From positions 1-63,141 of the forward strand of contig BQUP01000014.1 of the NCBI GenBank assembly GCA_022835595.1: a DNA stretch of 63,141 bases. The letters run 5' to 3'. The notes below the pieces were generated by a model, which was not told the origin of the DNA, did no database searches, and saw nothing but the letters and a program-made list of their open reading frames with translations. The stretch is from Cystobasidium ongulense (Eukaryota > Basidiomycota > Cystobasidiomycetes > Cystobasidiales > Cystobasidiaceae). The position numbers and the translations under genes are program-made. Below are positions 25,106-48,950 of the stretch, in pieces (position 1 is the stretch's first letter; each line of letters begins with the position of its first letter).

Positions 25106-27496
25106 ATGGTGTCCACAAAAACACTGACCACCATCCTTACGCCCAAGTAAGCTTCTTCTCGGATGCCGCTCACGTGCGCCGGCAAAAGCTAAATCGCGGC
25201 ACGTCCTTGTTTTCAGTGGCATTCTAGGCTACGGCTATGAGCTTTCTCACTTCTACCATGCTATCAACAACCACGATGTCAAGGCAATCATTTTCGACGC
25301 CGGTAGTACCGACCCTGGTCCATCCATGCTCGGAAGTGGAGAGACTCTTTGCAGCAGATCATCTATCGCCCGCGACCTGGTTCCTGTACTGAAGGCCGCC
25401 TACAACCGCAAGATCAAGGTGCTTATCGGCTCAGCTGGAGGTGCTGGACTTAACAGCCAAGTCGATGACTTGATTGATATCATGACCGAAATCTGCCAAA
25501 AGGAGAATCTGCCTTTGAAACTTGCTGCTATCTACTCCGACATCAAGAGAGATCTCGTAACTCAAAAGTTCAAGGCTAATCTCGTCGAACCATGTGGAAA
25601 AGGACCCCTGCCTCTCACTCAAGTCGACATAGACGATTCAATAAACATTGTCGCTCAGATTGGTGCAGAGCCCTTCCGTAAACTGCTCAGTATGTACCTG
25701 CTTCGCTTTCATATCTTGCTGTCAATTTGCTTACTTCTCCATTAACTGCAGACGATGACTCCATCGATGTGAGCACTTGATGATGTGGTCAAACAGAGTT
25801 TCATACCAAACACAGCACTGATGCATGGTCAAATTATAGGTGTTTGTTTCGGGTCGAGCATATGATCCAGCGCCCTTCGCGGCTTACGCTATGCATCACG
25901 GGATGGACGAAGGTGAGTGTTGTATTTCTCGCCCCATGTTGCTAGCTGCACGCATTATAGCCCGCGTTGGCGGTAGAAGACGCTTTGTCTCTAGGAAAGA
26001 GGCTGATTGATCTGTTCGTGAAGGTCCGGCTTGGCATATGGGCAAGATCCTCGAGTGTGGCGCCCTCTGTGCTTTACCAAAGGGCAAGACCATCGTTGCG
26101 ACAGTTCAAAAAGACAACTTCATCTTGACCCCAATCAGCCCTCTTGAACGCTGCACTCCCCTGTCTGTTTGCGCGCATACGACATACGAAAAGACCCGCC
26201 CCGATCTTCTAGCTGGACCTGGTGGCATCCTTGACCTAGTGAGCTTTCCATTCTTGCAAGTCTTAAACTGCGTCTGGGCTGAAAACTTTTGTTAACAGAA
26301 TCATGCCAAGTACGAGCAAATGGACGATGAGCGAAGCGTCCGTGTCAGCAACGCTATCTTCACACCCAGCCCTCGCTATCAGGTCAGTCCCGATAATCGT
26401 AATGAGCAGATTTGCCAACACTTACATTATTTCTCACAGGTCAAGCTTGAAGGTGCATCGCAAGCTGGCTTCCGAACCATCTTCATCGGCGGCATTCGCG
26501 ACCCAACATTGATCGCTGGCATCGACGACTTCCTCCTGAAGGTTCAACAGCAGACCACCGAGGGTTGCGCGCCAGAACTCCGTTCCGATCCAGATAGCTA
26601 CAAGCTTATCTTCCACGTTTACGGCAAGAATGCTGTCATGGGCCACCTTGACCCAGTCAAAGGCGCTGCTCACGAGATCGGAGTAATGGGCGAGGTTGTC
26701 GCTCCCAATCAGGACAAGGCCAACAGTATCGCAGGTTTTGCTCGAGTATGCGTGCTTCATGCAGCATACCCTGGACAACTTGCTACTGGAGGAAATCTCG
26801 CTTTACCCCTGACACCCCTGCAATCACCCATTGGAGCAGTCTACAAATTCAGCATCTACCACCTCATGGATGTTGATGGGGAACAAGCGTCACTCTTCCC
26901 TACCAAAATTATTCAGATTGGAGAGAACCGACAGATCAATGGCCATGCAAACGGCAGCCAGGACGATCCTTCCTTGAATGCCCCGAAATTGGAGGCCGTA
27001 CAGCTGCCGCCCCTGTCTCTCAAGACAGATGTCCCACTTGGTCCTTGCAAGCTCAAGGATGTTGCCAAAATCATCCGCTCCAAGAATTCTGGACCCTTCC
27101 AGATTACCCTCGATGTGCTCTTTGACGACGCGGCACTCTTCGACCGGGTGCAGAACGCCAACATTCTTACGGATGAAGTGCTGAGTGGACTGTATCAGCT
27201 GAAAGACAAAGACCTCATCTGTACGAACATGTTCTTCCGTCCGGCCCTAGCGTGGAAATTCACCTTTGTGCGACCCTGGGCCCAGGGAAGGTGAGTTTTT
27301 CTACGTCGTGTATTCAGGAAAGGCGCTGATAGTGTGTTCATGTGCTTATCGATATAGCATTGGCGAAAGGGTGGGTGTAGAAACCCTTCTGTCCTGCTGT
27401 TAACCTCTCTAACTCTTTTCCTTTTTGCCTTAGGATACCTTCGGAACTCAGCAACATGCGCCCCTGTTGGACATTGACGTTCCAGCTGCTCAGTAG
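25106..27496 (+). CDS. AtuA-like DUF1446-DUF4387 protein
   Basis: Exons: 25106-25146, 25217-25689, 25752-25768, 25840-25912, 26024-26238, 26299-26382, 26440-27290, 27358-27370, 27434-27496; 609 aa. Exons of 17 and 13 nt are needed to keep frame. Residues about 10-450 match the acyclic terpene utilisation AtuA family (DUF1446): GYGYELSHFYHAIN, FDAGSTDPGPSMLGSGE, GSAGGAGLN, VSGRAYDPAPFAA. The last 110 residues are a DUF4387 module (LKDVAKIIRSKNSGP, FDDAALFDRV, FVRPWAQGSIGERDTFG). The biochemical role of the fusion is not established; bacterial AtuA belongs to citronellol/geraniol degradation. The gene opens the metabolic block and points away from the housekeeping genes on its left. No targeting signal is evident. 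Confidence 0.88.
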
Positions 27497-27619
27497 ATCA
27501 ATTGTAACATAGTGAAATGGTCAAGTCATCTTGGTCGCGATGCAACAACGCCATAGGCGGCGGAAAAGTGAATTGCTACAGATACTTCTCTTGACAATGC
27601 GACCGGTAGTCCCTCTATC

Positions 27620-30315
27620 TTATAAAGCCCAATCTTGTCCACCTTGAAGGTTGCGCAAACCATCGTCGGCTGCGAATGTGTTCATGTTACCCCAGCTCAT
27701 GAAATCTTCAAGCGAGAAATCGGTTGTCCCTGTATTTGTACTGAAGTCGAGTTCAGTACCAAATTGGAAGGCATGACTGCTTGAACTCGAGCCATTGGAA
27801 GGGAAATTGAAGAGGTTTGCAAGAGAATCGTTGGGCGGGGGATATGGTGGATTTGAAGGCAGATTACTTGGGGTGGAAGCTACATTGAAGTCAAAGCCTT
27901 GCACGACGTTGGTTTCAGTAGGATTGAGACTCTGTATGTTTTGCATGTTTTTCGTGTTTTGCTGAGGTGGTGCAGTCCCTTTGGCTTCTGTCGCTAGCCG
28001 AGCTAGATCCCACATGGCATTGCTCGAAGACGCCCCTGCTAAATTGGTATGATTGGGAGAACTGACACGGGTGTTGCCGCCGGCAGGTGTGGGCAGTCTA
28101 TGCGACTGCCAAATTGCTTCCATCCGATCACCATCCTTGAAGAGTTCGTCAATGCGCTGGAGAGCAGAGCGGACCAGTGTGGGGAAGAGTTGGAGGTACA
28201 TACGTAGCTGCCATCGCCAGCTTTGCAGGATCTTCTGCAGCATGCGGAACTCATCTTCTCTAGGCGACGTGAAAACCAGTCCAAGAAAGAAGTTGGTTAC
28301 TGCCACGAATTGAAAGCTGGCAGCACTCCACCAGACTGAGAGAACGTCCTGACTAGTCAGACCTTTGACCCACATTCCGATTCTCTGCATTGTCTGCACC
28401 GCGTCATGACGCACTTTGGCATCAGCGGCTGGGCCGCATCTCATCAGAGCTCTATGTAATGCCACCTGTACCGAGAAGTATGCCAGCTGCAGCATAGCAG
28501 GAGTTTGAAGATCATCTGCTGAATCTGAGGAGCTCTCTTGAGAAGATGGGAACAGCGTATCGTGCCTTGAACGCCACTGTTCTAGCTTGCTGAAGAGAGG
28601 CTTGCAGATTGCCTTCGTTGTGGGAAAATCGGTGGTGAGTTGCGCTGTAGTCTTGGGGGCGAACAATTGGATATGAATCTCGGAGAGGATGCAAGTCAGC
28701 TCCGTCATTGCGACAAAGCGAGCAGTTGGCGTGGTATAGGTTTCAAAGTCGGCGGAATTTAGTGGCTTGACGGTCCATTCATTGTCGTGAATTAAGCTGG
28801 AACGACCGATAGAGTAGGCTAGCCACTTCTCTGTCATGAAGATGGCCCACCACAAGCGTTTGCTACGGCACGTTTTTGGTCATCAGCATGCTCGGTTGTA
28901 CGATGACTCTGTACTCACCGCAGTTGCATTTCCCACTTATTGATATTCCAGGTTTCAGGCGACCGGTGCAGACCGAGATTTTGAGCTGTAGTGACTAACA
29001 CGCCCATGCTATTCCAGACGCGGAACATGTTGTTGCTCTCGATAGTACTTGCAAGGATGCTGTTGCGTAAAAGCAGACTTTGCACTGTTACGAGTCTTGG
29101 TCGTTCAAGTTCTCTATCGACTGCCTGGTTGAGGTAGGTTCGCAGAACTGAGAGGTCAATTTCCGGCAGTGTGGTTGCTGTAAAATTGCGCCAGTGGTAG
29201 GCGACCAGCATTTGGCTTGTGACGAGCGGAAAGACTGCAAAATCTCGATGATTGAACTCGTGATTGGGTTGAAGTGCGGGTCCAAGCCATTGAACCACAC
29301 GAAGAGGGTTGATGATGGGGAAAGAAGGATGTATGACCCGAATGTACAGGTCGACGAGCTGGATTGCGTTCTGACGTATGGTGCGAAGAACTGCATGAAG
29401 GTCGACGTGCGCGTCGTAATCGGGATAAGTCAGCCTCGTGTGCAAAGAGGTTGGCCTTGATTCATCTGTGGAGATGACCTTGAAATGTACGGCGTCGGGT
29501 CCCACGTCATGCGTGATTGTTGTCCGCCTCGCCTTTTCAGCTCTTCCAATTTGTAAGGTCGATGAATCATGCCTGAGAGACGCTGACCCCTCCGGCGATG
29601 CGGTCGCCTCTACCCGTGAAAGATAATCTGGACCAGGGTCGGCGCTTGGTCCAACATGTTCCACTGTCGCATCGTGGTACAAATTGAGCGTAGGTCCAAC
29701 ATCAAGGTGTGAGGCATCGTCGGGGAGCTTTATTGAGTGAACGGATGTAGGTGTGTAGGTAGGCAGATTGTGATAACTTGTTGTGCGGACTGGAGCGGAA
29801 CCACCACCGTGTGGTCCCCCACTACTGTCGCTTATACTGCCAAGCCCTGGTGGAGCGCTCGGTGAGTGTCTCTGTTGGTCTTGATGTGATATTGCATTCG
29901 TATTTGAGGGATCTTGTGCAGTCAAAGAGAACGTTCGCCTTGGTCGCTTCTGCGGCTGTTCTTCAAACGTGCACGGTTGGCCTGAACGTAGACAAGGAGG
30001 TTAGGAAGCTGGTAAAGGTACTAGTCACGCCAGCAAGCTGTCTGCAAGCATTCGCAGATGGCCTCGCTGGTGGCTACGATTAAGCAACATACCGCTTGTA
30101 CGGCATCGGGCACATGAGGAATCGCCAACGTCAAGGAAGCATTTGACCTTCCGCCGCCGACACAGGTCACACCTTTTGATTGTAACATCACAACGAAGGC
30201 TCAGCCGTGCTTTCGGGAATTAGGCAAAAGAAAGCGGTACACACGGGCGGTCAGGCTTTGTGACGAGCGAAAGTCCAGGCAGCCTGGAAGGCTGATCTTG
30301 GGTTGTACTGCCCAT
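27620..30315 (-). CDS. Zn2Cys6 fungal transcription factor
   Basis: Probable pathway regulator. Exons (complement): 30245-30315, 30093-30172, 28919-29981, 27620-28862; 818 aa. The DNA-binding cluster is only visible after joining three exons: Cys25, 28, 35, 44, 47 and 54, in the spacing C-x2-C-x6-C-x8-C-x2-C-x6-C (CDLCRRRKVKC ... CARCRTSGQPC). A basic patch (QKRPRR) follows. A fungal_trans domain spans about residues 180-560, with LHTRLTYPDYDAH, LGLHRSPETWNI and RKRLWWAIFMTEKW. The C-terminus is Asn/Ser/Pro-rich, typical of an activation region. It is flanked by the AtuA-like gene and the SDR gene, so it may control them; this is inference from position. Confidence 0.9.
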
Positions 30316-31196
30316 CTCTGTTTGTATTTGTTCCAGCTAACTCTTGCTTGCAGTTAGATCTTGATGTTTCTTCCTTGAAAGCCTTCAGATGCCGTGATAG
30401 ATTACTTGCAGCCGGCGCTTTTCACTTGCCTCAAGCTTGATCTGAGTCCTTGGGCCTGTTCAGACTCGCTCGACAAAGATAGGTCATGCACGGGACGAGC
30501 CACATGCTTACGGGAACACTTTGGCGCGCATTGGGCTGCTGACCCATTTCGACATCATGAAGTGTTGTAGTGTATTGGGATGTAAACAAGCTCCAATTAC
30601 CTCGAGAGAGATTGGCGGCTTGCACAGTGATCGAGCCGAGCGGTTCCCTCGTCCGTCCTTCTATGCTGCTCGGTCGTCCACCCAGCGAGTGCTGACGCTA
30701 TCCAGACTCACGATTGCACGATCTACGCAGCTGGATGTAAGATGCCGCTGCCTCCTGCTCTTCAATTATTCCTTGAACCCGAGGTCTCGCGCCATACTGT
30801 TACCCGGTGCCCCAGTGGGCGCAGTGCAGGGAAGACCTCGATTAACCTTACTTGGATTCTAACCGCTCACTTATACGCTTCACTTTAGAAGTTACTGCGA
30901 CAGTGCACTGTAGCGGCACAGAGACAGGCCGAAGGATTGACCAAGCGAATCACGTACTGCAAAGTTGTTACACTTCTTCGCCTTCAAACCTCCAAGTCAA
31001 GTAAAACGCCGGGAACATCCTCTGGAACCCTATACCTATACATCAAATACCGGGGCATTACCGTTGTTGTACCAACCAGGAAATAAAGCGAGTCGTAAGC
31101 TACTAAGTTTTCGCATACGCTCATGCCATTGCATCAATATACCTGGAACCTTGCCCCCATAGATTCCGATTCACGACCGACTAAGCAGATTTAAGC
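30316..31196. promoter_or_regulatory. Divergent promoter of the regulator and SDR
   Basis: About 880 bp between the start codons of the Zn2Cys6 factor and the SDR. A plus-strand frame (30521-30862) has no domain. No operator can be assigned with confidence. Confidence 0.45.
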
Positions 31197-32325
<1,129 letters not shown>

Positions 32326-32469
32326 TACTCGCCGTATAGCATAGTTACAGTAAAAAAATATTCGAGGGATTATACAATATCTTGTGCACGTATTTGGCCA
32401 ATTTACTGCAGTGTACAGCCCGTTCCTCGCTTCATTGTACATATACAAAGACAGGAGGCAGACAAACCC

Positions 32470-34180
32470 CTAATAAGCTAGCTGGGCTTTCTGAATGTCT
32501 CCACTTGCGGCCAGAACTCTAGAGGGATGTACAGTATAACCGATTTCATTGTCTGGGAAGGGTCCGTAGAAGCGAGATCTGTCCCATTTGTACAGCGCTT
32601 CTTTCCGCTGCAGTTTTTCCACAAGATCAGGATTGGCACTGAATGACCGAAAAGAAAGGGGTAAGTTCGTTGTAGAAGTGCGAGACTTGTTAGGCGGAGC
32701 TTACACGAAAAATCTGCCGAAAGCTATCAGATCGTGCGCGCCACTTTGCAAGCCGTCTTCGAAGTTTTCGGGGCTAAAACCACCGGCAGCCATCACTGGG
32801 GTTGATCCAAGAACTTTACGGAAGTGGTTGAGCGTAAGTTCACTCTGGTTGTAGTCAGAAAAGGCGGCCATCTTCTCGCTAGCGGACTTGAACTCGTCAA
32901 ATCGAGGTTCGATGAGATGGCTTTGTTGCAGATACGAACCTTAGCCAGCATAAGAATGGTGCGAGTGAAGATACATACACATAGGCGAGACCCATTTTGG
33001 CTAGCTGCGAACATAGGTATTGCCATTGGGGTATCCTATCTTGTCCATAAGTCTCGTTGAATAGACCGAAAGGCGATAGACGGACAGCCACTCGTCCAGA
33101 GCCTATGGCATCGCATAATTTTTGTACCGTCTCTAGAGTGAACTTACACCGGCCCTCGATGTCCCCTCCGTAGCTATCTTTGCGCAAATTGACTGAGAGA
33201 GCAAGGTGTTAGCGAGAGAATTTGAGTTTCTGCGTATTCAAAGCCAATTACTGTTACTGTGATGGAACTGATCAAACAGATACCCGTTACCAGCGTGAAC
33301 CTCTACGCCATCAAAGCCACAGCCTCGTGCATTGACAGCGGCTTGAACGAAATCGTCTTGAGTCTGCTTAATGTCGTCAACAGTCATTTGGGTGGGCTTA
33401 TCGAATGGCCGTGCTGGGATATCGTTCCAGAAAAATCTGTGCTACAAGGTAAGTCTTTTGCTTAGGACGAGAATAATAGAAAACCAAATTCCACTCACTC
33501 TCCCTGAAGCGCAACATCAGAGCTGGACTGTGGGTTTTCGTCTATCAAGCATGAGTGAGTGGTTCTGCCTTGGTGCCAGATTTGACAGAAGAAGATTCCG
33601 CCTTGCGCATGAACTGCGTCCACTATACGACTCCATCCTTGGCGCTGTTCTTCGTTGAACAGACCTGGTATGCCGGGTACGCCAGATGCACGAACAGACA
33701 CTGGCCTGGCGAATTCCACCTATCAGTACTGATGTCTCGTCTACCTTGGAGCAGGAGACTGAACATACGTAGCTTCGGAGATGAGCAATCCACCTTTTGT
33801 AGCTCTTTCTCTGAAACGTTCCCACAGCCATGTTGTCAGTTTAGGACTTGCATTGTGGAGTAGGTATAGATCGAAACCAACCTATAGTATTCTAGCATTA
33901 GATCGTTTGGAACCCATGTATGCTTATTTACAGTGCTGGGTGTTCCACGGTTGCGTGTTCTGTGGATTTGCGCTGTTATCAGTCACACGAGAGGGTGAAG
34001 TATGGAGGCAATTGGCGGAACAAACAATGGAGCCAAAACGATGCGATGCTCCAGATGACTGCATTGTAGGAATACGCGTCAGCTGACCGCTGCAAGTAAT
34101 GTCTGCGTGGACAAGCAGGCTCTGGCATTAGGCACTCACCTCTCTCCCACTTGCAGTGGTGACCAAGCTGAAATCGTCAT
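32470..34180 (-). CDS. Old Yellow Enzyme family ene-reductase
   Basis: FMN-dependent NADPH oxidoreductase that reduces activated C=C bonds. Exons (complement): 34140-34180, 34026-34058, 33932-33959, 33769-33881, 33499-33705, 33258-33436, 32979-33192, 32705-32920, 32470-32638; 399 aa. Spliced start MTISAWSPLQVGES then HLEHRIVLAPLTRNR, which includes the FMN-contact Thr. CQIWHQGR, the substrate-binding H-x-x-N in VEVHAGNGYLFDQF (with the following active-site Tyr), RKDSYGG and GRFFVANPDL are all conserved. Exon 3 is 28 nt. The stretch after LTRNR departs from the usual EYYxQRA consensus, so part of the capping region is divergent. It is convergent with the SDR (about 145 bp between stops). Confidence 0.9.
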
Positions 34181-34412
34181 GGTGCTCTATGGTTGGAGGT
34201 CCAATCAAGCTGTCTTTTCGCTGCCTTTTAACAATATATAGCTGAAGATGTGGGCTGGCTACAGAAGAATGCTCTCGTGACATCTATTCACGCATTCGCC
34301 AGGTGCACCCCTGCCTGCCTTGAAGTCCTTCCCCGGGATCTCTTTATCAAAGAAGGCGATATCGCCGTCGCCGCGGCGGGCCGGTGCGAGAACTGGAAGC
34401 GCCTTGGGATTT

Positions 34413-34450
34413 GGGGGGGGGGGGGGGGGGGGGAAANNNNNNNNNNNNNN
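34413..34450. other. Assembly gap next to a G homopolymer
   Basis: A run of 21 G (34413-34433) and AAA precede 14 N (34437-34450). The homopolymer most likely broke the assembly, so the real gap length is uncertain and sequence may be missing upstream of the OYE gene. Confidence 0.97.
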
Positions 34451-35086: not shown

Positions 35087-35733
35087 TGACTTAGCCATGA
35101 GCTCCAATTACGAACGGTCCTCACATATTGATATCGCTCGTCGGTATGCTGTGAAAGTCGCTAGTGCATGGGTGATCACAAAGAAATGCCGGTCAACCAC
35201 AAAGAACGATTGATCTGCGAAGGCGTTGGCCACATTCTAGAACCGCTCGAAAACTGGAAATGCAATAATGATGTACAGTGTCGGATCTCCCTCACCTCGA
35301 GGTTCCTATCTACTCTACAGCATATATGAATACTACCGGCCCCAGCAGACGTAAAGGCAGGCAGGTCTTGAGTGTGCAGACGACCCGCCCAATGCCCGTG
35401 CTAAACCTCTTACTACCGAGTCAGTAGGAAAAGAAGGCCCATTTGTTGTGCGGTAGGTGCACTCATGCCAAAGCTCATCTTAGGCAGTAATGATGCTCTA
35501 TTGTGACAGGACTTCAGCTTCTTTTGATCTATACTTGTCAACTTGCCAGCGTGCTTTCATCATTTGTCGCCACTTTTTCGGCGTTAGCATCTCTCTTACT
35601 TCAACTCAGCTCGTGCGAGTCGGCGGATCTTACAGTACAATCAGAGCGCTGCACGGGTCGACAAAGCGATCTAGAGTTCATTACTCAGACTCATCGCCTG
35701 TCGACTGCCTGCTCCGCCAGACGAGCCGGCACC

Positions 35734-38435
35734 ATGGCATCAATGCCCGGTGCTTATCGGACACACGATGCGGACGAGATCGATCTCCCTGTAACGGAAG
35801 ACGAGGCTTACAGCCCATCAGCAGAAGGTTCGTGACTTTACCTACATCTCTGACCATGCGTTATCATCTTCTAAGTCACTTTCGATGCTGTTTCTCCAGA
35901 ATTGGAGTTGAGGATCGGCAATGCGCTCGAGTCTACCGACGAGTCCGACGAGGAAGAAGACGAAGACTACCTCGACAATGAATTTGGAGGAGAGTACGGG
36001 GATATGTCAGAAGAGGATCTCGATATCGACGACGATTTCGACGAGGATGGCAATTATATAGGTGATGATCCGGAACTCGCTGAAGCGGAGCGCTTAGCTA
36101 TGGCAGCTGCTGCTGATATTCCAACGGATGAGGAAGGTGGTGACGAGGATGCAGCGGACAGCGCAAGACCGTCAAGCGGCTACACGTTAGCAATTGATCG
36201 TGAGAATGAATCATCACCTGTGTCAAGCGAATGCATCTGACAGAGTAAATGCCGTCTACAACCCAGCCACCACCAGCCGGGTGTATCTCGTTGACAGCGA
36301 AGGCAATCATCAAGAACTCAACACTGGCGAAGACGCAGATGGAACTCGCGCATCGCAAAACTCAGACACGCTATCAATCCTTGGTAGACTCCTCGGTCGA
36401 AGATCCCTGCGGGCTTCTCGCGCCACCAACAGGATAGCAGAAGATGAGGAGGAGGAAGACGATGACGAAGGCGGGCTAGGCATGTTCCAATACGGCTTTC
36501 GCGGTGGTAGGAGAACTGCCGAAGGTCTCTTCCCACCTGCTTCGACACCGGCGGCAGCAGGCGTAGAGCTGGAGAGGCAAGGTCTCTTTGGGAGAGTGAA
36601 TACTTTGCCATTATTTGAGCTGCTGAAATATTCACTGATTCACCAACTTCAGCCCAGTTTGCGATACGATGCCTTCCCGAGGAAGCGATTTGGTTCCTCT
36701 AGTATGAACATCAACGATAGCTTGCGAGCTCGAGAATATAGACAACCATACCGTAATCTCCAGCGCTTCGATCTTGGGGATGCAAGTGTACCCAACAGTC
36801 CAGGTACTGAAGTTGCCAAGTACGATGCTAACATCTACTGCGGCCAATACTCTCAAGATGGCTCATTCTTCTATACATGCGCTCAGGGTATGGTGAATAT
36901 GGTAGTGTACTAGTCAGTGCCAAACTCTTACATTACCTTTCCTACCAGACTACAAGATCCGGATATATGACATGCTTACGCCCAACGTCGACAAGTCTGT
37001 TAATGATTCCCAGGAGAGGCCAGCAGGCAGACGTTATCGACAGTACCGCATGTACTATGACGAGGATAAAAGTTCGCTCTCGTTGACCAAGACCATTCAA
37101 GCTAGGGAGCATCTTTCTTCGTGGACCATAACCGATGCAAACCTCTCGCCTGACAATACTAAAATGATTTGGTCGACAATTGGACCGGTGGTTGGTATGA
37201 CTCGCGTCCGAGACTCCCCTGATGATATGGAAACCTACGATGACGGAGACGGTCAGGTGGCTCTAGACTTTGGAGCTGGTCGCAATGGTGGAGGGCGGCA
37301 TTTTGGGGTGAGTGCACAAGGGCAGTCTTCTCTCCTTTCGCGTCTGACGTGCCTTGCGATAAGATTTGGGCAGTTCGATTTTCCGCAGATGGCCGAGAAA
37401 TTGTGGCCGGTGCAGGGTCTGGATCGATATATGTGTACGATCTTGAGAGCCGTCAAACAGTATTGAGCATATCTGCTCATGAAGACGACGTAAATGCAGT
37501 ATGCTTCGCCGATAGTGAGCGCACATCACAGAGCCGATAACTTTACGGCCCGGACGCCACTGACTCGCGATTCCGCCTTAGCTGCATCATCCAACGTCCT
37601 GGTGTCAGGTTCCGATGATAACTACCTGAAAGTATGGGATAGGCGTTCTCTTGGAGATGCGGGAAGGCACACGAAACCATCGGGAATTCTTGTCGGTCAC
37701 ACGGAAGGCATAACGTACGTTGATCCTAAAGGAGACGGCCGCTTCGTTCTCAGCAATGGAAAAGATCAAGTAAGCAGCGATTTCTCTTGAAAGGCTGCTT
37801 CAAACTGCTTACAACTAAATATAGGCATGCAAATTGTGGGATCTACGAATGATGTACTCGGACGATCAATTCTCAAAATTGGACCAACTCGATGTTTGTG
37901 AGTGGAACGATAAATGATGACTCTTCTTTCTATCTCATGAAGTATGTGCCCATTCGTAGCTGTCCGTAACTACGACTATCGACATGGACTATACAGAAAG
38001 CCTCGCTTTGCAAAGCATCCGCACGACCGGTCACTCATGACCTACACTGGTCATACCGTTTTGCGGACATTGATTCGCTGTCACTTCTCGCCTGAAGCCA
38101 CCACTGGCCAACACTACGTCTACTCGGGTTCGTACGATGGAAGGATTCACATCTGGAATCTCGACGGCACCGTTAAACAGGTTTTGGATCGTAGTCACAC
38201 TATGCCTCTCCTTACCAAAGGGTCTGCTACGAACGCAGTAAAAATGAATGACCCAAGTCAGCCAGATCGTCCTCTGGGAACCTACCCAACAGCGTCATCT
38301 TCACCCGTCGTTCGCGATGTGTCATGGGCTCCATACGCAGCAAACATCATGTCAAGCGCCTGGACTGAAAGCGGTGGTTCTCTTGCCATGCATGAGTGGA
38401 AAGGATACGGCAAGCGGCAGGAGCAATCTCTATAA
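35734..38435 (+). CDS. WD40 protein, DCAF11/WDR23 family
   Basis: Probable substrate receptor of a CUL4-DDB1 ubiquitin ligase. Exons: 35734-35827, 35900-36199, 36228-36887, 36949-37307, 37364-37514, 37582-37769, 37825-37897, 37960-38435; 766 aa. A long acidic N-terminus (DEEEDEDYLDNEFGGEYGD) is followed by RVYLVD and a beta-propeller of about seven repeats (FGIWAVRFSADGREIVAG, VYDLESRQ, GSDDNYLKVWDRR, ACKLWDLR, VRNYDYRHGLYRKP, YSGSYDGRIHIWNLDG). The VRNYDYR element is a WDR23 hallmark. The second intron is unsettled: a 28-nt intron (36200-36227) or a 91-nt intron from 36137 both keep frame. It is a housekeeping gene sitting inside the metabolic block. Confidence 0.88.
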
Positions 38436-38718: not shown

Positions 38719-39970
38719 TCACGGGAGCGTGGCGCTTACCTGCGATTTCTTGCTGTTGTATACGCCATACTGCTTCAGGTAATCCTCCCAGCTGGGACGC
38801 TGGCACTCTTCGTCAATAGGGCGATGTCAGTATAAAATCGCAATTATCAATTGATCGCTACTCACCGTATGCGTCGGTCGTCCTGCCGTAACCTATACCT
38901 CCGATACGTGATACAGGCAACATTTTCCCTGTGTCGATGGCGCCAGTGGGGCCAAACAGATCTTTCCGAGCATGGAACTTTCTAATGCGGCCAACCACAA
39001 AAGTACTGGTGAGTATCCGTTGTTCATCATCGCTATATATCTGCAATACTTGGGTGAGCTAAGACTAATGACAATTCCATTAGTACAAGCTTACGTCGTG
39101 GAAAAATTCCATGGTACATTCCATAGCGAAAGCGCTCTCTCCTACACGAGGCGCTTTGACCACATCGCTTGGGACAGGAGTCAAGCCTGTCAAATCCCAT
39201 TCGCTGATACCTTCGGGGCAGTCAATTGCAGAAAAGCTAGGGATTGCTTAGGAGATCAGATCTTCTGTCAGATCAATGCAGTAAAGGATCAAAAGACAAC
39301 CAACTTTGAAGCTTCTGCAAAAGGCTCTGAGATCATGTTTACCACAAACTCCTTGGTAGCTTTGATGTTGGTCAAGGAGTCCTTATGTTTGCCATTCCCA
39401 TCTACAATGGGCTCGGCGCATGAAAAGTGCACCATAAGCTAATTTGCAATGCGCATCAGCTGCTAACATTCATAGTAATAGTCTCTCTGCAGCTGTAGCA
39501 CATGATGCGAATAAGTGCAGAACTCACCATGGGCGGTCTAAAACCCAAAGGTGCAAAGTAGGAGAATGGTGCTAGATTCTTTACGCCACCTGGAGATATT
39601 GTTGAACAGAATGCTATTGGTCTGGGTGTGATACCTCCGATCATAAGTTTGTAGATTTGAGGCTTATCTTCCACCTCCTCAGGGTCTATATGATGAAAAT
39701 TCCTTTGAGAGCCTTCCAGTGTCGCGCCATCAATGAAAGCCTGGTATCCCGGCAAATCAGTTCGACCATCTAGGCGTATTATTTTAGCTTTGCTTGCAAA
39801 AGGATAGAAGAGAAGAAAAGCGCACTCAATCCTTGACCTGGCTTCCAGTCTGGATTAGGTTGCTGGGAATACTGGAATCTACCGACTGGGAATCGTAGAC
39901 GGCGAGCCTCTACAACCTCAAACGGTTCGTGTTTAGAATGCCCGCGATTTGGAAGTTGGCCATTTGGCAT
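38719..39970 (-). CDS. Flavin reductase-fold (FMN-binding split barrel) protein
   Basis: Exons (complement): 39838-39970, 39528-39769, 39305-39438, 39095-39236, 38866-39040, 38719-38807; 304 aa. The flavin-reductase-like core runs from about residue 75 to 250: MIGGITPRPIAFCSTIS, GGVKNLAPFSYFAP, then NGKHKDSLTNIKATKEFVVN and FHARKDLFGP. Such proteins bind FMN and either reduce flavins for partner monooxygenases or act as oxidoreductases themselves. The N-terminal 60 residues are an extension rich in charged residues. Two donors are weak (GTCAAG after exon 1, GTTGGT after exon 3), but only these joins keep the family motifs in frame. It is divergent from the amidase across an 845-bp promoter rich in GATA sites. 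Confidence 0.82.
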
Positions 39971-40815
39971 CGTGATCTTGTGATAAGCGTGAGGTGCTCT
40001 GAAATAAGCGGTGAGACGATACCTGCATGCTGCGATGTGCTCTGTCTTTAGACATGACTGATAAGTATCAAAAGGCCGATCAAGGCAAGGCTAGCCGGCT
40101 GCCAAGAACGCGTAGACGATAAAGCGAAGACTAAGTTGACGTGTAGGCTCTGCCCTGCAAGGGTTGTACGCTACTGTAGTCAATTCGTGAAGACACTCCA
40201 TCAGCTGTTGGCTGGTTCTGATGCAGTGATATTGTAGGGTTCCCGCATGCCGCCTTGGGATTTCTTTTCTGCTTGGTGCGGCTCGCGGAGGAGCACTCCA
40301 GAACTGTAGCCTCTTGTGCACGGCGAACGATGTTGACGACAGCATTCACACTCCAACCTGACGAGCTCAACTACCTAACGATAGTGTCAGTCATCCTGAG
40401 ATCCAGGTAAGCGAGAACATTCGACAGTCTGCACAAGGTGAGCGTGATCGAGCTTTTATTCGCAGACACCAGCTCGGAGAGGTTGGTCGACATGAAGAGA
40501 GGAAAGGCCATTCCGATGCGGGAGTAAAGAGTAGGTCTCTTATATTCTTATTAATGTACTATTTAGCTTGATGGGCTATTCACCACCGTTATCGAGCTGT
40601 GGTACGGTTATCTTAGATATCAGTTGTTGCGCAATGGCCGCGGCGCCTCTGCAGCTGCTCGTCGGCCCACAGGTAGACGGCGGAAGCTGTTTAGAAAGCC
40701 TGTTCAGCTAGGGAAAGCCGCAGAGAGAAGGTGTCTCAACTCCATCCGTCTCCCTCATCACTTTCAGTAGTCGAACAACGAACAACCACCACGCATTCCT
40801 TTCCCACACCTGACA
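39971..40815. promoter_or_regulatory. Divergent promoter with GATA sites
   Basis: Sequence between the flavin reductase and amidase start codons. GATA-factor core words occur at 39981-39987 (TGATAAG), 40059-40065 (TGATAAG), 40118-40122 (GATAA), and as TTATC at 40589-40593 and 40608-40612. Five or more cores, two of them the preferred TGATAAG, exceed the one to two GATAA words expected by chance in this length. This suits AreA/Gat1-type nitrogen control. Binding is inferred. Confidence 0.55.
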
Positions 40816-42709
40816 ATGTCGTCCCTGGACTTGTGCCGACTGACCGCGACAGCGGTCGCAGCGGCTACTCGGAGTGGCTCGCTTCTGGTGGAAGATTAGT
40901 AGGTGGAAAGCGCGTCAGAGCGAACAGAAAGTGACAGCAGCTGACTGCCGCCTCACAGTGCAAAGGCTCTCATTCAGCGCGTCCAGGAGCGCGACCCTGT
41001 CGTGCACGGTTGGTGAGCAGCTCTCTATCGACTGTCAAGCCAATTGCAGGTACTTGAGTGGCAAACTTACTTCTCTGTTGTGATATAGGGCCTTCTTCGA
41101 CCCAGAGCTCGTGCTCCGCTCTGCGAGAGAGCTCGACTCTATTCCTAAAGACAAGCGTAAGTGGCATCTGATATCCTGCTTGTCCTAACCGGCAAGTGGC
41201 TGACCTTCTTTTCCTTTCTTATTGGAAACCATTAACTCGGATCGCAGGAGGACCGCTTCATGGTGTAGCTATCGGCGTCAAAGATGTCATTCTCACCAAG
41301 GACATGCCTACGCAGCATTTCTCATCAATCTACAAAGATGACTGTCCAGCAATTGATGCGAATCCAGTCATGACACTTCGTGCTGCAGGAGCACTCATCT
41401 TCGGCAAAACCCACACCACGGAATTCGCTACGTAAGTCTATTGGTCATGAAGCTTTTGATATCACTAGATAGTCAACATTCCTTCGTGCTAACACTCGTC
41501 TGTCCTTGTTCATCTCTCAGCTGCCAGAAGGGCCCTCCAACATGCAATCCACATGATCCCACACGCACTCCAGGCGGAAGTTCATCTGGGTCTGGTGCTG
41601 TAGTAGCAGACTTGCAGGTCCCGCTCGCCCTAGGCAGTGTGTCAAATCATGATAATCTAGTTTTTCCTCATCATTCTAAGTGCTCCTTCCACATTTCCCA
41701 GCTCAAACAGGCGGCAGTACCATCAGACCGGCTGGCTACAACGGGATATACGCAATCAAGCCAACATGGGGTGGCATATCTCGGGAAGGCCTGAAACAAT
41801 GTATGTTGGATCCTGTCAGCACTTGCCCATGACATGGCTAACGAGTCCATCGTCTAGATTCCATCATGTGTGACACCCTCGGCTTGTACGCCAGAAGTGC
41901 GGAAGATTTGCAGCTTCTCATGAAAGTATTTGCTATCGAAGACGACGTTAAGCCTGGAGATATCACAATGAAAGGAAGCAAATTTGGATTCGCAAGAACA
42001 CATGTCTGGTCAAAGGCATCTCCAGCCTTGCTACAAATTTGGGAGGATGCGAAACGGTATCTCACTGAGGCTGGCGCAGAGGTGGAAGAGGTCGAGTTCC
42101 CAGCCGTATTTGATAACATGGGCGAGTGGCACAGGTACGCTTACCGAAACACACACCTTACTATGCAAGTTGTCTAATATCCTCTTTTGTATCCATGCAG
42201 ACGCATCTTGCAAACCGAAGGAAGAGCATCCTTCCAAGGCGACTACGTGACCAACAAGTCGCAATTAGATCCATGGATCCTTTCTCATGTGCACAACGAC
42301 ACGAAGATTACCCGTAAAGAACAGCTCGAGGCGTACGACGAGATTGCCAAGCTGAGACCAGTGGTCGACGAGATCGCTAGCAAATACACTGCCATCATTA
42401 CCCCCAGCATCACAGATGAAGCGCCACTTCTTGAAGAACCTCTCCGTTTTACTGGGGATGCTGTAGGTGTTTTTGGGACCTAGCAATCATGTGGTTCTAG
42501 CTGACCTTCACTCCCTCGTACAGTCATTCAATCTCATGTGGACCATTCTACATCAGCCTGTCGTGAATGTTCCAGGCTTCAAAGGCCAAACAGGTCTGCC
42601 AATTGGCTTATCCATAGTTGGACCTAGATTTCACGACAATGAGCTCCTCAAGGTTGCGGAAGCTATAGCTCCCGTCTTCGCTCAGGGGGGTTGGAAGAGT
42701 AAAGTGTAA
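40816..42709 (+). CDS. Amidase signature family hydrolase
   Basis: Hydrolyses an amide to acid plus ammonia. Exons: 40816-40898, 40959-41012, 41089-41156, 41248-41431, 41521-41636, 41702-41800, 41858-42134, 42201-42462, 42524-42709; 442 aa. All members of the Ser-cisSer-Lys triad are present: Lys in GVAIGVKDV, the cis-Ser in TPGGSSSGSGAVVA, and the nucleophile in TQTGGSTIRPAGYNG. WGGISREGLKQYSIMCDTLG and NVPGFKGQTGLPIGLSIVG complete the fold. There is no signal peptide. Length is short for fungal amidases but complete. Its 3' end faces that of the PuuE-like gene about 200 bp away, so the two may supply consecutive hydrolytic steps, as HxnM and HxnN do in nicotinate catabolism. The substrate is not determinable here. 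Confidence 0.93.
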
Positions 42710-42911
42710 CCGCTCCGTCTTTGCAATCATAACTCAACACAAGAAGGAAAACGAGAAAGTGAAGTGAGCACTGAGACAAGTGTGCAGCAGTTGATCGTTC
42801 GTACTATTTCGTGTTACTCAATGTGCAACTATCTACCCTAAACTGTTTATGGTCCAAAAAGTGACTGTTTCGACTCGCATATTGCCTGGTTTACCAAAGA
42901 CTCTCAACTTC

Positions 42912-44302
42912 TCACTTAGCTACACTGACGTCTTTCTTTGCCTCGTAAGGGTACTGTTTGACCCACTCTCGAGCAAGCTGTTCACGTGTAGCGAACCATA
43001 CATCATCGAAAGAAGTAAAGTACTCTACCAGTCTCTTCAGGGTTTGTGCGCGTCCAGGTCGGCCAATCCATCGAGAGTGAAGCGCGACAGTTAGGTAGGC
43101 AGGCTTGCCTTCGAGTCCTTCCTCTCGGAGTGTGGTGAAAGCGTCAACAATGTGTTTGTAGAAGGCTTCATCACTGGTGTAATGACTGATCCACAGCTTA
43201 AAATCGTTGCAGTCGAGAGTGTAGGGCATCATGAGCAGACCTTCGGACGCATCGCCACCCGGCCTGGAAGTCCAGTATGGCAAGTCATCGGCGTATGTAT
43301 CCGCCCAGTACAAGAACTCAAGACCCATGTCCTTGTAGACCTTGGAGACGAGGTGAGCTGACCTGGCAGAAGGTCGACCGTAGAACCACTTAAATATCGT
43401 GTTAGTGTTCGCCCTTGCCTCTATGCAGCGAAGAACTCACCCCGGTGGGGACTTTGCCGGTAGGAGAGGTAGCTCTGTATGCCTCGATGGCCTTACGGAT
43501 GTAGGCTTCCTCTTCGTCATCGCTCATGCCTGTGTAGGCACGCCACTACATGTGTCGGACCAAATACAAGGACGTGTCAGGGTAGATCGCCATAACACAA
43601 ACATAACAAGAGGACACACCTTGTAGCAATGAGCGGCTACCTCGTGACCGTTCTCTTCTGCATACTGGGCGATCAGTGGATTCCTTTCGAATGCTCGTCC
43701 AACAGCATAGAAGGTGATGGGAATGTCGTGCTTCTTGAAAATCTTCATGATACGCCAGATAGCGGCACGCGAGCCGTAGTCAAATTGCGACTCTGTCGCA
43801 GGATCCCTTAAACCCGGTTCTGCGGCCAGCTGGCTCAAGCAAGCATAGCATCGATAAGCATTCTCAACATGATTTGACCAGACAAGTCCAGCTTACGTTT
43901 CCCTGGAGAACGGCAGATACAAAATGTCAATTAGCATACTTGCAGCGTTGTGTAGACGTTTGAATTGAGTAACCTCTTACATTTCCGAACTCGTGTCCAA
44001 CAGTCTCAGCCTGACGATATAGTCTCAGAGTCAGTGCCAGCCAACGACTTGATCAAGCCAAAAGATACACAAATGCACATGTTCATCACCATCTTCTACG
44101 GAACGCTCTCCTCCTTCTTCGTGATTGAGCACAACTGAGACAGAAAGTCAGCCTTTAGCCTTTGAGTGGCTCATCTCGATGTGCTTGCTCGACACATACA
44201 ATTCACAGCAATCTTGGCACCACTGGGAAAGTTGAAAGCCGGGCGGTCGGGCCCATAGCCGATTAGGTCGCGCTTCATCCATGCATCATCGTAGGTGGCC
44301 AT
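42912..44302 (-). CDS. PuuE/allantoinase-type deacetylase-fold hydrolase
   Basis: Polysaccharide-deacetylase (NodB) fold enzyme of the PuuE subgroup, whose members act on cyclic amides such as allantoin or cyclic imides rather than chitin. Exons (complement): 44200-44302, 44079-44134, 43981-44010, 43897-43902, 43620-43829, 43441-43545, 42912-43388; 328 aa. Subgroup marks: MKRDLIGYGPDRPAF, GAKIAVNFVLNHEEGGERS, ESQFDYGSRAAIWR, GHEVAAHCYKW, PTGWFYGRPS, YWADTYADDLPYW. There is no signal peptide or chitin-binding module, which argues against a wall deacetylase. The exon list includes a 6-nt microexon; skipping it also keeps frame. A start further upstream has no ATG support. Its neighbours are the amidase and the transporter. 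Confidence 0.88.
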
Positions 44303-44998
44303 ATTTTTGGTGTGGTAGATGATTCGACTGCCTGCAGAGATTGTTTCGCAAGATTGTCTGGTGCGTAAGGTATCCAATCCAAAGCGAGAGGAAAACAGAA
44401 AGCGGGGAGCGGAGGATAGCGGTTCGCGGCGCGGCCGACCAGTAGCTTGGCCGACAGGTGTGACGGCCCGAGATGGACAAATAACAAAGTTACTGCGATA
44501 ACGACACAGCTGGGGAAATTATTATCCAGCCCAATCACAACTGCAGGACACATGTCTGGCATTGTCTGCTTCCCTCTGTCTCAACATCGCCTTCCTGAAG
44601 CTCATGTGGTGCCCGGGATTCTGGCTCGGCCGAAACTCCGTGGCTTGCCAGATTTCGACGCAGGCGTGTTACCAAGTCGCCTGATCCAGTCATCAAGGGC
44701 GTTTTCTTTGCATAAGCATCATACTAACCCCTATGGGAATCGCATAATGTTGCACTATCATATACACTGATTTCCTATGCTGGCAGCCCGGGCTGACAGG
44801 CCCTTTGCTCTCTGATTCTGTTACATGTTTTCGTTAACCACTGGGTCCCATGTTTCTTTTCGCGTTATCAGACTCCTCCACCTCCGTTTCTGAGCCTGGC
44901 TTCCAAAGGCAAGGGTGCCTTTGAAACTCGTACTTGATGCATCGCTTAAGAGCTACAAAGCCATTTAGCAATACCCTCAAAAAAGCAACGGGTGAAAC
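44303..44998. other. Spacer upstream of the PuuE-like gene
   Basis: About 700 bp with the PuuE-like promoter (leftward) and the 3' UTR of the transporter. GATA cores lie at 44497-44501 (GATAA) and 44522-44526 (TTATC). No coding gene recognised. Confidence 0.45.
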
Positions 44999-47092
44999 CT
45001 ACTTGTCTGCGCAACTGAAAGCCTTGTCGACCGTACCAGCAGCGTACTGATCCAAGATGGATTGAATAGAAGAGTAACTGCCTGCAATAGTTTGGCTTTC
45101 AAACAGATTGTATGTCAGTACAGAGATAGGGCAGCGTGAGCCCTTGCAACTAACAAGATGCCGTATGCGAACATGAACACGTGGAAGAACCATGCAAGCT
45201 TCTGCTTGAAGGATCCCTTGCGCCAGTGGTTGAAGTCATAAAGCCAGTAGGACATGGGGAAGACGACCTGTAAGACAAACTCGCTCAGTTTTGTATTTGC
45301 TAGGTAGGCATTGTTCAACTTACGGCAAGCGGTGTGTATGCAATGGCGCCAAGCAATCCTGCAAACGAATGAGAGTCAGCCAATGAGAATGAACAAGGTA
45401 AAGAGGTTCCTCACCCAGCAGGGTGCCGAAGAAAGGAACGGCTTCCGCAACGACGAACCCAACTGCACCTGTACCCAGACAGCAAGAACTAGCGTAGATG
45501 GAGCGATCAGTTGGGGCACAGAGTGGCGAAGTCAAATGGGCTTCTTACATCCATGTGATCCAGTGTCGGGCAGTCTTCTTTTGCAGATGCTCGGTATCTC
45601 GTAGTAGTCGTACGAAGAGGTATTTTGCGGCAATCTGGAATGGTCCGATAATCAGCACTGGTCTAAACTTGCTGCGCAAGGCCTCAATAAACCCTCCGCC
45701 TCACGTGCTGTGTCACAATGGTGCTGAAAAGAATTCCTGGAAGGCCGATACCAAAGGCAATCTTCTTGATGAGGGGACCAGCTGATCCTAAGGCGACGGG
45801 AGCGATGTAGACTTGATGATAGTGATCAGTCAGCGTGTGTGCGCGTTAATACATTTGAGTCGCTTGCACTTACTTCCGCAATAACGGTAAACTACGAGAG
45901 AGATGACAAGGTAGCTGGTATTCAGAAGACCCATGCAAGCAAAGATAGGCTTCTTGTAGTCCTGTGGATTCTTCATCTCTGCGATCCTACAAAATGAAGT
46001 AAGTGGTCAGCCAGTATCAATATAGTTGCTTGATTGTGATGTAACAAACATGGGAACAAAAGCAGCGGTGCCCGAGGAAGAGACAAAGATGACCAGGCAG
46101 GCAGTCATACCACCGAGGAAGCCACTATTGGCGACGACCTGGAATCCAAGGTCGACAGGGCCTTCCGCTGGAGCCAGTGCTGGCCTGTCCGCTATAGCAA
46201 CGGCAATCACGACGACCATAACTGCGATAAAGAGGGAGATGCATCCGACGGCAGCTATGGGGTGTTGTGTCAGCATAAAAGAAATTATAATTAACGAAAG
46301 GAGGGATCAATCACCTCCCCAACTGATCTGCGAGAATCTTGGTGGCATAGTCGCGAAAGTGCAGAAGATGAAGCACACGAATGCAAACCTGTGAAAAGGA
46401 GGGTGGCCATTAGTTAGCATCTAGGGGAACAGTATGAATACGTACCAAACTGTGCAAGCGCCATGGTCGGAAAGGGCATTAAGTGCTGAAGACCCGGCGA
46501 TAACACCGGAACCAACAACTAGAACGTATCCCAGTAAGAAGAGGCCACCAACAAGCCTGAAAATTGCAGAAGGGGAATCAATAAAGAGTGCAGATCAGAT
46601 GCAGTTATGCTTGACTAAAAGACTCACTCTCGATACCACTTTCCACCAATGAGAAAGGCGAAGTCTTGGACACCGTGCATACCAGGATGACGATTACGGA
46701 ATGCAACCTGAACAAAAGCAGAGTATGTGTTGAATGCTCCCCAGAAGATAATCAAGAGAGCTCCAGGTAGTGCTCCGACGAAGATGAACATGGCAGGGAT
46801 GGAGAGAACACCGGTACTGAAGAGGGCCTTGAACATAAGGAAGAAGGTCTGGATCCTACGTTGTAAAAGAATATATATGTCGACATAAGCAACTTCACAA
46901 GTGATATTGTGCTTTATAACTATCTTACCAATGGCCAGTACGGTAGTCCTCGCCTTTGACGTTCTTCTTGAATACTTCGAACTCATCGTCACCGGCGCGT
47001 GCCTCCCTGACGCTGCCTCGCTCATCGCCAACCTGGGTTAGTTGCTGGACTTCGGGCTTGGTGATGGTGAGGTCTTCCTTGCTGGAGGACAT
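44999..47092 (-). CDS. AAAP amino-acid transporter, Mtr type
   Basis: Multi-span plasma-membrane permease of the amino acid/auxin permease family, close to fungal N-type neutral/aromatic amino acid transport proteins (Mtr). Exons (complement): 46929-47092, 46628-46855, 46446-46556, 46315-46388, 46050-46254, 45874-45986, 45705-45811, 45549-45634, 45415-45488, 45324-45358, 45122-45267, 44999-45077; 473 aa, about 11 spans. The cytosolic N-terminus leads to [20 protein letters not shown], then [11 protein letters not shown] and [15 protein letters not shown]. Later blocks are [29 protein letters not shown], and [18 protein letters not shown] near the end. Exons of 35 nt and an intron of 44 nt occur. 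In this setting it may import the pathway's nitrogenous substrate; true specificity is unknown. Confidence 0.92.
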
Positions 47093-47586
47093 GGCTAGCA
47101 ATCTGTCACAGCGGGATGTAATCGGGATGGGAAGAGGTGATAAAGAAGAAAGGACGAAGAGGGAAGGAGCGATAGAGATGCTGAAGAGAAAGAAAGGAAA
47201 CCCAGAAGGGAGGGGATGCTCCTATCACCTGGGGAATGCTTGGATTGATCATGGCCATGGAGCAAAGCAGATTTATGGGTCTGGAGTCTCTTATCCCCCG
47301 CCTTCATGCGCGCCCAAATGCCGAGCTGCGCCGACCAAAAACCTAGATAAGGAAAAACAGCTCAGCCAGCCAATCGGCCTGCTGGAATTGAAAGGAGAGT
47401 AGGACCGCGCTCAAAGTCGGTCGCCTCGTCGGTAGGAAAGGCCCGAGGGTCTGTAGAAGCCGTCCTGCATGCGGAGCGCCTCATGGATCCACTATAAAAG
47501 CCCTGGAGGGAATCTCACGTCTATGTCTTCTTCCAACGACTAGTTTGGTAACACCCATCCAAGTATTATCCATACCTTCAATCACT
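47093..47586. promoter_or_regulatory. Bidirectional promoter, transporter / dioxygenase
   Basis: The 494 bp between two divergent start codons hold GATA cores at 47138-47143 (TGATAA), 47291-47295 (TTATC) and 47345-47351 (AGATAAG). Shared regulation of permease and dioxygenase by a nitrogen GATA factor is inferred. Confidence 0.5.
47493..47500 (+). promoter_or_regulatory. TATA box of the 2OG dioxygenase gene
   Basis: TATAAAAG lies 87 bp before the ATG at 47587, a usual distance for a fungal gene with a short 5' UTR. It is one of the few clean TATA elements in the window and suggests an inducible gene. Confidence 0.6.
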
Positions 47587-48950
47587 ATGCCTACCCTCGC
47601 AACATCTACTCGAGCCGAGCCATTGGTGTTCTCACCAGCTCCCGCCACCAAGGAAGATGTAGATTGGTGCAAGCTCAACACTGTCGACATGTCGAGTAAG
47701 TTACTATCTTGCTAAGACATGGAACCTGTAGAGGACTAGTGGCTCACCTGCTTGACCCTAACTTTAGCTTTCAACGACGGTCCTGAGGCCCGCAAGGCAC
47801 TTGCCGAGATCTTGAGCAAGTCCATGCAAGAGCAGGGCTTCTTCTACCTAATCAACTATGGCGTTGATGAGGCCGAAATCACAAGACAGGTCAATATCGG
47901 CCACACCGTCCTTTCCACTACCCCCCAAGAAGAGAAGGCCAAGCTCCGCAGTCAAATGCAGGAAGAAGGCAACTACAAGGGCTTCAAGCTCAAGGGGTAT
48001 TACATGGGCGCTGGAGGCACCCCTGACCGTATCGAGCAATTCAACTGGTAATCAACACACTAGATCAAGTTTTAGATGGCATCTGACAATTTACTCGCAG
48101 GTACCGAGACATGAAGTCCCAAGAGTTCCCATCTACCATCCAACCCTACATGGACGAGGTTGCTGACTTCTCCGAGAGAGTCCACAACCAGGTTCTCCAC
48201 AACATCCTCCGACGTGAGTTTTGATAACAGCCATGGCTTGGTGCACGGTACTAAAGTTTCCCTTTGCATTCCAGTATTCGCTATTGCCCTTGAACTTCCA
48301 GAGGAGCATTTCGTCGACATGCACAAGTTCGATGTTCACGATGAGAGTTGGTTCCGATACATGAAGTACTACGACGAATTCAATGAGGAGGAGAAGAAGG
48401 TCACTAAGGACGTCTGGCTTGGAGGTCACGCCGATTTCGGTTCCCTTACCCTACTTTTCTCCCAGCCTATGGCTTCCCTCCAGGTCCGACGCGAGTCCGA
48501 CCAGAAGTGGCAGTTCGTCAAGCACGTCCCCGGTGCTATGATTGTCAACGCTGGCCAGTTCATGTCATGGTTCACTGGTGACTTCTTCAAGGCTGCTATT
48601 CACCGTGTCAGCGCACCTCCCAGAGACCAGCGCAACTACGAGCGATGTGGTGTGTTCTACTTTGTCGTCCCCAACGATGACGTTGTGTGCGGAACACAAA
48701 TGCAGTCTCCAGTTCTCCAGCGAAATGGCATCAAGCCACGTCCTGAAAATGAGGTCACGACATCTAAGATCTATTCTCAAGCCCGTATCTCCAAGGTCGG
48801 CAAAACAACAGTCAGTCAGGGAGGCCACAAGGAGGGTGAATTCCAGGTCGAGCTTGTCGGAGGTGTAAGCATGCTTTCTTGCAGAGCCTCACTATCGTGA
48901 GACTGACATTTTACTCGCCTGAACAGGTCCCAACCAAGTGGTACGGTTAA
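47587..48950 (+). CDS. 2-oxoglutarate/Fe(II) dioxygenase, IPNS-like
   Basis: Non-haem iron oxygenase of the isopenicillin N synthase-like group. Exons: 47587-47695, 47768-48047, 48101-48213, 48275-48864, 48927-48950; 371 aa, the last coding exon being 24 nt. The N-terminal DIOX_N region has SMQEQGFFYLINYGV. The iron ligands are the HxD pair in GGHADFGSLTLLF and the distal His in AAIHRVSAPP, where the following R-x-S is the usual 2OG-binding signature. The enzyme should be soluble and cytosolic. Substrate unknown: family members oxidise pyrimidines, alkaloids and others. Shared promoter with the transporter and the nearby amidase/PuuE pair suggest an HxnY-like role in N-heterocycle breakdown; that is inference. 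Confidence 0.92.

Follow-up and report, generated by a model that had tools for sequence, protein, structure and literature searches.

What does a 24-kb run of enzyme, regulator and transporter genes encode in the basidiomycete Cystobasidium ongulense, and do its members work together? The genes lie on contig BQUP01000014.1 (here C14) of assembly GCA_022835595.1, and the whole contig, 63,141 bases of an assembly of 19.77 Mb in 19 contigs, is the window analysed here. A preliminary description had proposed a relative or convergent counterpart of the hxn nicotinate cluster of Aspergillus nidulans. Our analysis argues for a smaller unit. Two of the genes, for an amidase-signature hydrolase and a PuuE-type hydrolase, are convergent with 202 bases between them (Table 1), and they stand side by side in fungi of two basidiomycete subphyla. 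On balance, we lean towards reading this pair as a two-step module, distinct from hxn, that would first open a small ring, a cyclic ureide or imide, and afterwards hydrolyse the amide so formed.

The arrangement of the two genes in other species carries this reading. From homologue lists of the 120 best rows for each protein, 55 hydrolase rows (bacterial ones excluded) and 48 amidase rows entered the comparison, and a shared contig was inferred from species name together with an identically sized contig. Seventeen species occur in both lists, and among the matches listed 13 of them have the hydrolase and the amidase on one contig. Locus tags are comparable in 12 species, in which one annotation covers both genes, and in eight of these the tags are 1–4 apart. 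They differ by one in Sporobolomyces johnsonii (6396/6395), Rhodosporidiobolus poonsookiae (2347/2348), Rb. microsporus (1443/1444), Rb. ruineniae (765/764) and Rhodotorula kratochvilovae (635/634), by two in Kwoniella sp. DSM 27419 (5467/5469) and K. dejecticola (104850/104852), and by four in K. shandongensis (104416/104420). These species belong to Kwoniella (Tremellomycetes) and to the Sporidiobolales yeasts (Pucciniomycotina, Microbotryomycetes). Both genes of Tremellales sp. Uapishka_1 are on a single 69.6 kb contig, while Meredithblackwellia, Rb. nylandii, R. paludigena and Aspergillus unguis offer only a common larger contig.

As a control, the AtuA-DUF4387 fusion gene that opens the block was compared in the same way with the amidase (five comparisons) or the hydrolase (one) in other fungi, and none of the six shared a contig. 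The AtuA and amidase contigs of Colletotrichum chlorophyti and Clonostachys rosea differ in length too, by eye. The pairing of amidase and PuuE-type hydrolase exceeds chance, and this is shown for the pair only. Conservation of the block in relatives, which the preliminary description had put forward as a check, is seen for these two genes, which are kept together, and not for AtuA, which lies on contigs of another length in the fungi compared. That Tremellomycetes and Microbotryomycetes alike retain the two as neighbours suggests a common function. In the open-licence literature, judged from titles and the beginnings of abstracts, we found no paper on an amidase/PuuE-type gene pair.

The hydrolase is closest to PuuE among solved structures, with near whole-length homology to the Pseudomonas allantoinase (1z7a, 3cl6). 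It scores 245.6 bits with 1z7a, 231.4 with 3cl6 and 45.7 with HpPgdA (3qbu), and the three PuuE-type chains span 220.7–245.6 bits. These searches, like those against Pfam and NCBIfam and the one for the hydrolase homologue list, used a model seven residues longer than the final 326 amino acids (aa). Homologues reach 79% in Kwoniella among the matches listed, and the protein is 43–46% identical to the four bacterial proteins compared. It differs from PuuE in several respects. Its 280 bits fall below the curated PuuE cut-off (TIGR03212) of 424.6, which was set on bacterial proteins; it has an amidase partner; it carries extra residues near 185–188; and conserved residues are altered. The residue that follows the motif histidine is glycine in nine of ten bacterial rows, but cysteine in the window protein and 13 of 14 linked rows. 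At residue 275 tryptophan stands for leucine, and at 171 tyrosine for threonine, in 12 of 12 rows (11 of the 14 linked rows and the window's) against ten of ten bacterial rows.

For the amidase, the closest solved structure is malonamidase E2 (PDB 1ock, 199.1 bits), followed by GatA (137.9 bits). The alignment with malonamidase E2 covers residues 66–422, and the first 65 residues of the window protein fall outside it. The signature motifs K80, S150–S152 and S174 are invariant in all nine aligned sequences, the window's included, and we take the conserved lysine and serine motifs of this family to be catalytic. The best match among those listed is 70%, in Kwoniella. Malonamidase E2 acts on a small half-amide, and PuuE opens the ring of allantoin. 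Given malonamidase E2 as the nearest structure of one partner and PuuE as the subfamily of the other, the most economical account of the two together is that a ring is opened and an amide or ureide then hydrolysed. The PuuE-type enzyme would hydrolyse a ring C-N bond in a small substrate, either a cyclic ureide or a cyclic imide, as its same-fold relatives PuuE and HxnM suggest, and the amidase would hydrolyse the open-chain half-amide or ureido acid, setting free ammonia or urea for use as a nitrogen source, as malonamidase E2 suggests. We infer both reactions, the substrate class and the nitrogen use from such relatives. More tentatively, the neighbouring AAAP permease may import the substrate and the 2-oxoglutarate (2OG)-Fe(II) dioxygenase may pre-oxidise it. 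GATA-type sites are somewhat dense between the flavin reductase and amidase genes and between the permease and dioxygenase genes, where 4.5% and 5.2% of same-length windows, respectively, reach the count.

Several observations weigh against this reading. The sharing of contigs depends on equal contig size and species name, among the matches listed, and gene order in relatives covers the amidase and hydrolase only. Four of the 17 species lack a shared contig: R. graminis, R. araucariae, Rb. azoricus and K. heveanensis, the last a comparison of two different strains. In four of the 12 comparable species (R. graminis, Rb. azoricus, R. araucariae and Rb. nylandii) the tags differ by 1,066–3,419, and in a further three species a second copy of the hydrolase gene lies 3,657–5,231 tags away from the amidase. 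The 2.75 Mb contig of Rb. nylandii that carries the amidase also holds two hydrolase entries, of which at least one must be non-adjacent. The altered residues do not follow linkage strictly: the motif cysteine is also present in unlinked Sporidiobolales copies and in two mushroom proteins, the linked A. unguis protein carries alanine in its place, and W275 and Y171 occur in some unlinked rows too. As unlinked Sporidiobolales copies share it, the cysteine marks the subfamily and not linkage. Among promoters, the densest in GATA-type sites is that of AtuA (2.6%), outside the proposed module, and the region upstream of the hydrolase is not enriched (32.5%). The GATA densities, uncorrected for several looks, are weak support for nitrogen control.

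A tree of the hydrolases bears on the distant cases. It was midpoint-rooted and held, after a length filter, 61 listed proteins and the window's own, with R. araucariae P0153 dropped. Kwoniella, Uapishka_1 and the window hydrolase make up a set of seven rows (100/99), which is joined at 98/95 by a Sporidiobolales set of 18 rows. The hydrolases listed for R. graminis and Rb. azoricus, like the Rb. nylandii entry that has the comparable tag, lie in a second set of Sporidiobolales paralogues (100/100), a placement that fits a duplicated hydrolase copy away from the amidase in these three species. The linked A. unguis hydrolase clusters with ascomycetes, outside the basidiomycete set. Two Kwoniella paralogues are told apart by alignment at the motif, which reads SHGYRW in P0139 and CHGYRW in P0145.

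Could the genes, the pair included, be mere neighbours without a common pathway? The amidase and old yellow enzyme (OYE) families are common in this genome (26 and 15 fragments, the window's own included), the gene set was picked after the fact, and the four species with distant tags would fit such an account. We nevertheless consider it very unlikely, because tags lie 1–4 apart in eight of the 12 comparable species, drawn from two subphyla, and the paralogous set explains, at least in part, three of the four distant cases.

Is the block, then, a partial or diverged hxn cluster? The published accounts of hxn (among them PMC9304392 and PMC8478523) describe a pathway of HxnS, HxnX, HxnV, HxnT, HxnW, HxnM and HxnN, accompanied by HxnY, transporters and the regulator HxnR. 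At the level of enzyme class, the window matches HxnT, HxnW, HxnY, HxnM and HxnN as outlined in PMC9304392, although its OYE, short-chain dehydrogenase/reductase (SDR) and dioxygenase, the candidate counterparts of HxnT, HxnW and HxnY, all come from large families. Beyond class, several features differ. HxnM is assigned to the HpPgdA-like subfamily in PMC8478523, and the window hydrolase is of the PuuE type (245.6 versus 45.7 bits). The molybdenum-binding domains of HxnS (PF02738, PF20256) have no match in the assembly in an exon-wise search, which also missed the window's own AtuA gene when run with PF07287 (PF14330 recovered it). No FAD_binding_3 domain, as expected of HxnX or HxnV, occurs among the nine modelled genes. 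The preliminary description had itself remarked on both gaps in the window, and on a Zn2Cys6 regulator and an AAAP permease in place of the C2H2 and MFS types, which Pfam confirms. Moreover, the hxn authors report such clusters to be absent from Basidiomycota (PMC8478523). We therefore reject the hxn identity, and any partial or diverged form of that cluster is extremely improbable.

What survives of the comparison is its logic. In A. nidulans, hxnM and hxnN are adjacent genes, one for a ring-opening hydrolase of the CE4 fold and one for an amidase, the first leading to a half-amide and the second to ammonia, steps that are shown or proposed in PMC9304392 and PMC8478523. A candidate ring-opening C-N hydrolase beside an amidase, conserved in other fungi, follows the same scheme. 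This likeness of logic is the part of the preliminary proposal that finds support, and a place in hxn, or close kinship with it, is the part that does not: the hydrolase is from another subfamily, and the upstream hallmarks tested did not turn up in the searches of the window or genome. The amidase has 442 aa and HxnN 543.

A different possibility is that the PuuE-type gene encodes a second allantoinase, with the amidase acting on a downstream ureide in a duplicate purine branch. PuuE is the closest characterised relative of the hydrolase, the Uapishka_1 homologue is annotated as an allantoinase, and PuuE binds no metal, unlike HpPgdA, and takes a small ring substrate (PMC3084791, PMC10967932). 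On the other hand, the score lies well under the (bacterial-set) PuuE cut-off and residues fixed in bacterial PuuE are altered. In addition, the genome encodes a canonical allantoinase at C5:1801332 (421.1 bits, cut-off 357.85), so that the cell need not rely on the PuuE-type gene for this activity, and a role as sole allantoinase is unlikely. Uricase had no match in the assembly, nor had the molybdenum domains of xanthine dehydrogenase, and the purine route looks incomplete, or genes of it were missed. Taken together, these points make a second allantoinase a minority reading, unlikely although the strongest of the alternatives.

Beyond the window hydrolase, PF01522 matches eight other places in the genome. 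Six were read, C10:616255 and C10:617573 not being among them, and five of the six look like ordinary chitin deacetylases by eye. The sixth is a second PuuE-like gene (C5:2030998-2031897), 40–47% identical by exon and with the bacterial-like motif SHGYR. In 6 kb of sequence from that locus there was no tblastn match to the window amidase. Given the two places outside this reading, a hydrolase of the HxnM type may yet exist elsewhere in the genome.

A more specific form of the two-step reading would be an old, so far undescribed route of basidiomycete yeasts for a small cyclic nitrogen compound; an oxidised pyrimidine such as barbiturate, for instance, would be opened to ureidomalonate and cleaved to malonate and urea, the neighbouring dioxygenase making the ring substrate. 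It invokes a PuuE-type enzyme with cysteine for glycine beside the conserved histidine, and a malonamidase-like amidase. We regard this route as speculative and quite unlikely in this particular form.

The AtuA-DUF4387 gene deserves separate comment, because its ATG is position 25,106, where the preliminary description had begun the block; it is a ninth gene that its text left unnamed. Both subunits of the citramalate lyase CmlA/CmlB (PDB 9erq, 9evf) match it, chain A of 9erq at 329.8 bits and chain B at 72.4. The window homologue is one fused chain, and as judged by these matches it is a one-chain relative of the CmlA/CmlB pair. Many of its named matches are ascomycete, including the best among those listed (53%), with Kwoniella at 47–48%, and in some ascomycete homologues the chain is further extended by a CaiB/BaiF domain. 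Bacterial two-gene forms were read in six plasmid regions, of which one (Escherichia coli) lies beside glutamate mutase, methylaspartate ammonia-lyase and fumarase, two more have fumarase, and three have neither fumarase nor methylaspartate genes. The same methylaspartate-type setting appears in PMC4682846, where the DUF1446 protein is called one of unknown function. In C. ongulense the window gene is the sole DUF4387 match in the genome by exon-wise search. Another AtuA-family gene lies at C7:318738-320289, where the window protein has no tblastn match at E 1e-3; it is probably a distinct subfamily. The contig comparison revealed no tie between AtuA-DUF4387 and the amidase/hydrolase pair. A maleimide or citraconimide route, joining OYE, hydrolase, amidase and the citramalate-lyase-like gene, is chemically neat; we left it as unproven, with the AtuA contig apart in all six comparisons.

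This bears on whether all genes of the 24-kb block serve a single convergent pathway for an N-heterocycle under the Zn2Cys6 regulator, in which the OYE would reduce, the SDR oxidise, the PuuE-type enzyme open the ring and the amidase free ammonia. Every enzyme type required lies within 24 kb, flanked by housekeeping-type genes, and among NCBIfam models the OYE comes nearest to N-ethylmaleimide reductase (227.8 bits, below the cut-off of 403). Yet the WD40-like gene, at about 35.7–38.4 kb, divides the block in two, the OYE and SDR come from large families (OYE fragments occur on five further contigs), and AtuA is on a separate contig in the fungi compared. GATA density is unlike between the halves, AtuA excepted: the SDR/Zn2Cys6 and OYE promoters are not dense relative to same-length windows. 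CGG/CCG palindromes in the promoters revealed no common site by eye. We judge a single pathway across the block unlikely; the four genes on the left side of the WD40-like gene (AtuA-DUF4387, Zn2Cys6, SDR and OYE) probably just adjoin the pathway genes and are not members of the pathway to which the amidase and hydrolase would belong.

Spliced gene models were built by hand, and families were assigned with Pfam, NCBIfam and PDB sequences. All eight gene families named in the preliminary description are present (Table 1). The dioxygenase gene is divergent from that of the permease and is one of four places in the genome that match PF03171; its best PDB matches are the ethylene/succinate-forming enzyme (63.7 bits) and thymine dioxygenase (54.9 bits). 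HxnY is a T7H-like dioxygenase. The flavin reductase gene is divergent from that of the amidase, and its protein matches nitrilotriacetate monooxygenase component B (99.5 bits) and 2-nitrobenzoate nitroreductase (87.5 bits). The OYE scores 244.6 bits with 12-oxophytodienoate reductase 1. In the SDR gene, intron 1 (31230-31297) appears to be GC-AG.

Table 1. Genes of the block in order along the contig; the WD40-like gene separates the four genes of the left half from the five of the right half.
Feature	Position	Strand	Model	Evidence and remarks
AtuA-DUF4387 fusion	25106..27496	+	609 aa	Pfam DUF4387 122.1 bits, AtuA 59.4 bits
Zn2Cys6 transcription factor	27620..30213	-	first exon incomplete, no start codon placed	Fungal_trans 68.2 bits, Zn_clus 24.7 bits
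SDR	31197..32325	+	255 aa	Pfam adh_short_C2 197.5 bits
OYE (ene-reductase)	32470..34180	-	399 aa, N-terminal exons uncertain	Pfam Oxidored_FMN 216.9 bits
WD40-repeat-like gene	35731..38435 (approximate)	+	reading frames	Match to WD40 is weak, 26.8 bits (cut-off 27)
Flavin-reductase-like FMN-binding split barrel protein	38719..39970	-		Pfam Flavin_Reduct 78.2 bits
Amidase-signature hydrolase	40816..42709	+	442 aa, 9 exons	Pfam Amidase 238.7 bits; half of the conserved pair
PuuE-type hydrolase, CE4/NodB polysaccharide-deacetylase fold	42912..44302	-	326 aa, 6 exons	PDB matches; half of the conserved pair
AAAP (Aa_trans) permease	44999..47092	-		Pfam Aa_trans 87.9 bits
2OG-Fe(II) dioxygenase, isopenicillin-N-synthase type	47587..48950	+		Pfam 2OG-FeII_Oxy, DIOX_N

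The flanks of the block had been described as housekeeping in character, and domain matches bear this out in the reading frames scanned (18 of 82 of at least 110 aa). On the left they include SUR7, an ESCO-type zinc finger, an SPB1-type methyltransferase, CWC25, NUDE, WD40 and BRCT, and on the right LRR (marginal), RhoGEF and eIF2A. The left end of the contig (1-300) holds a direct repeat, in which a 31-base word starts at positions 3 and 207. Upstream of the OYE gene, within 34415-34450, a poly-G run lies close to a 14-base N gap (34437-34450), and this is probably an assembly break.

The hxn label was tempting but wrong, and it gives way to a smaller unit that can be tested. If the two-step reading of the amidase and PuuE-type hydrolase is true, fungi would have paired a CE4-fold ring-opening hydrolase with an amidase more than once, and from different subfamilies. 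It would also help to annotate proteins that appear in the homologue lists as chitin deacetylase, allantoinase or glutamyl-tRNA amidotransferase subunit A.

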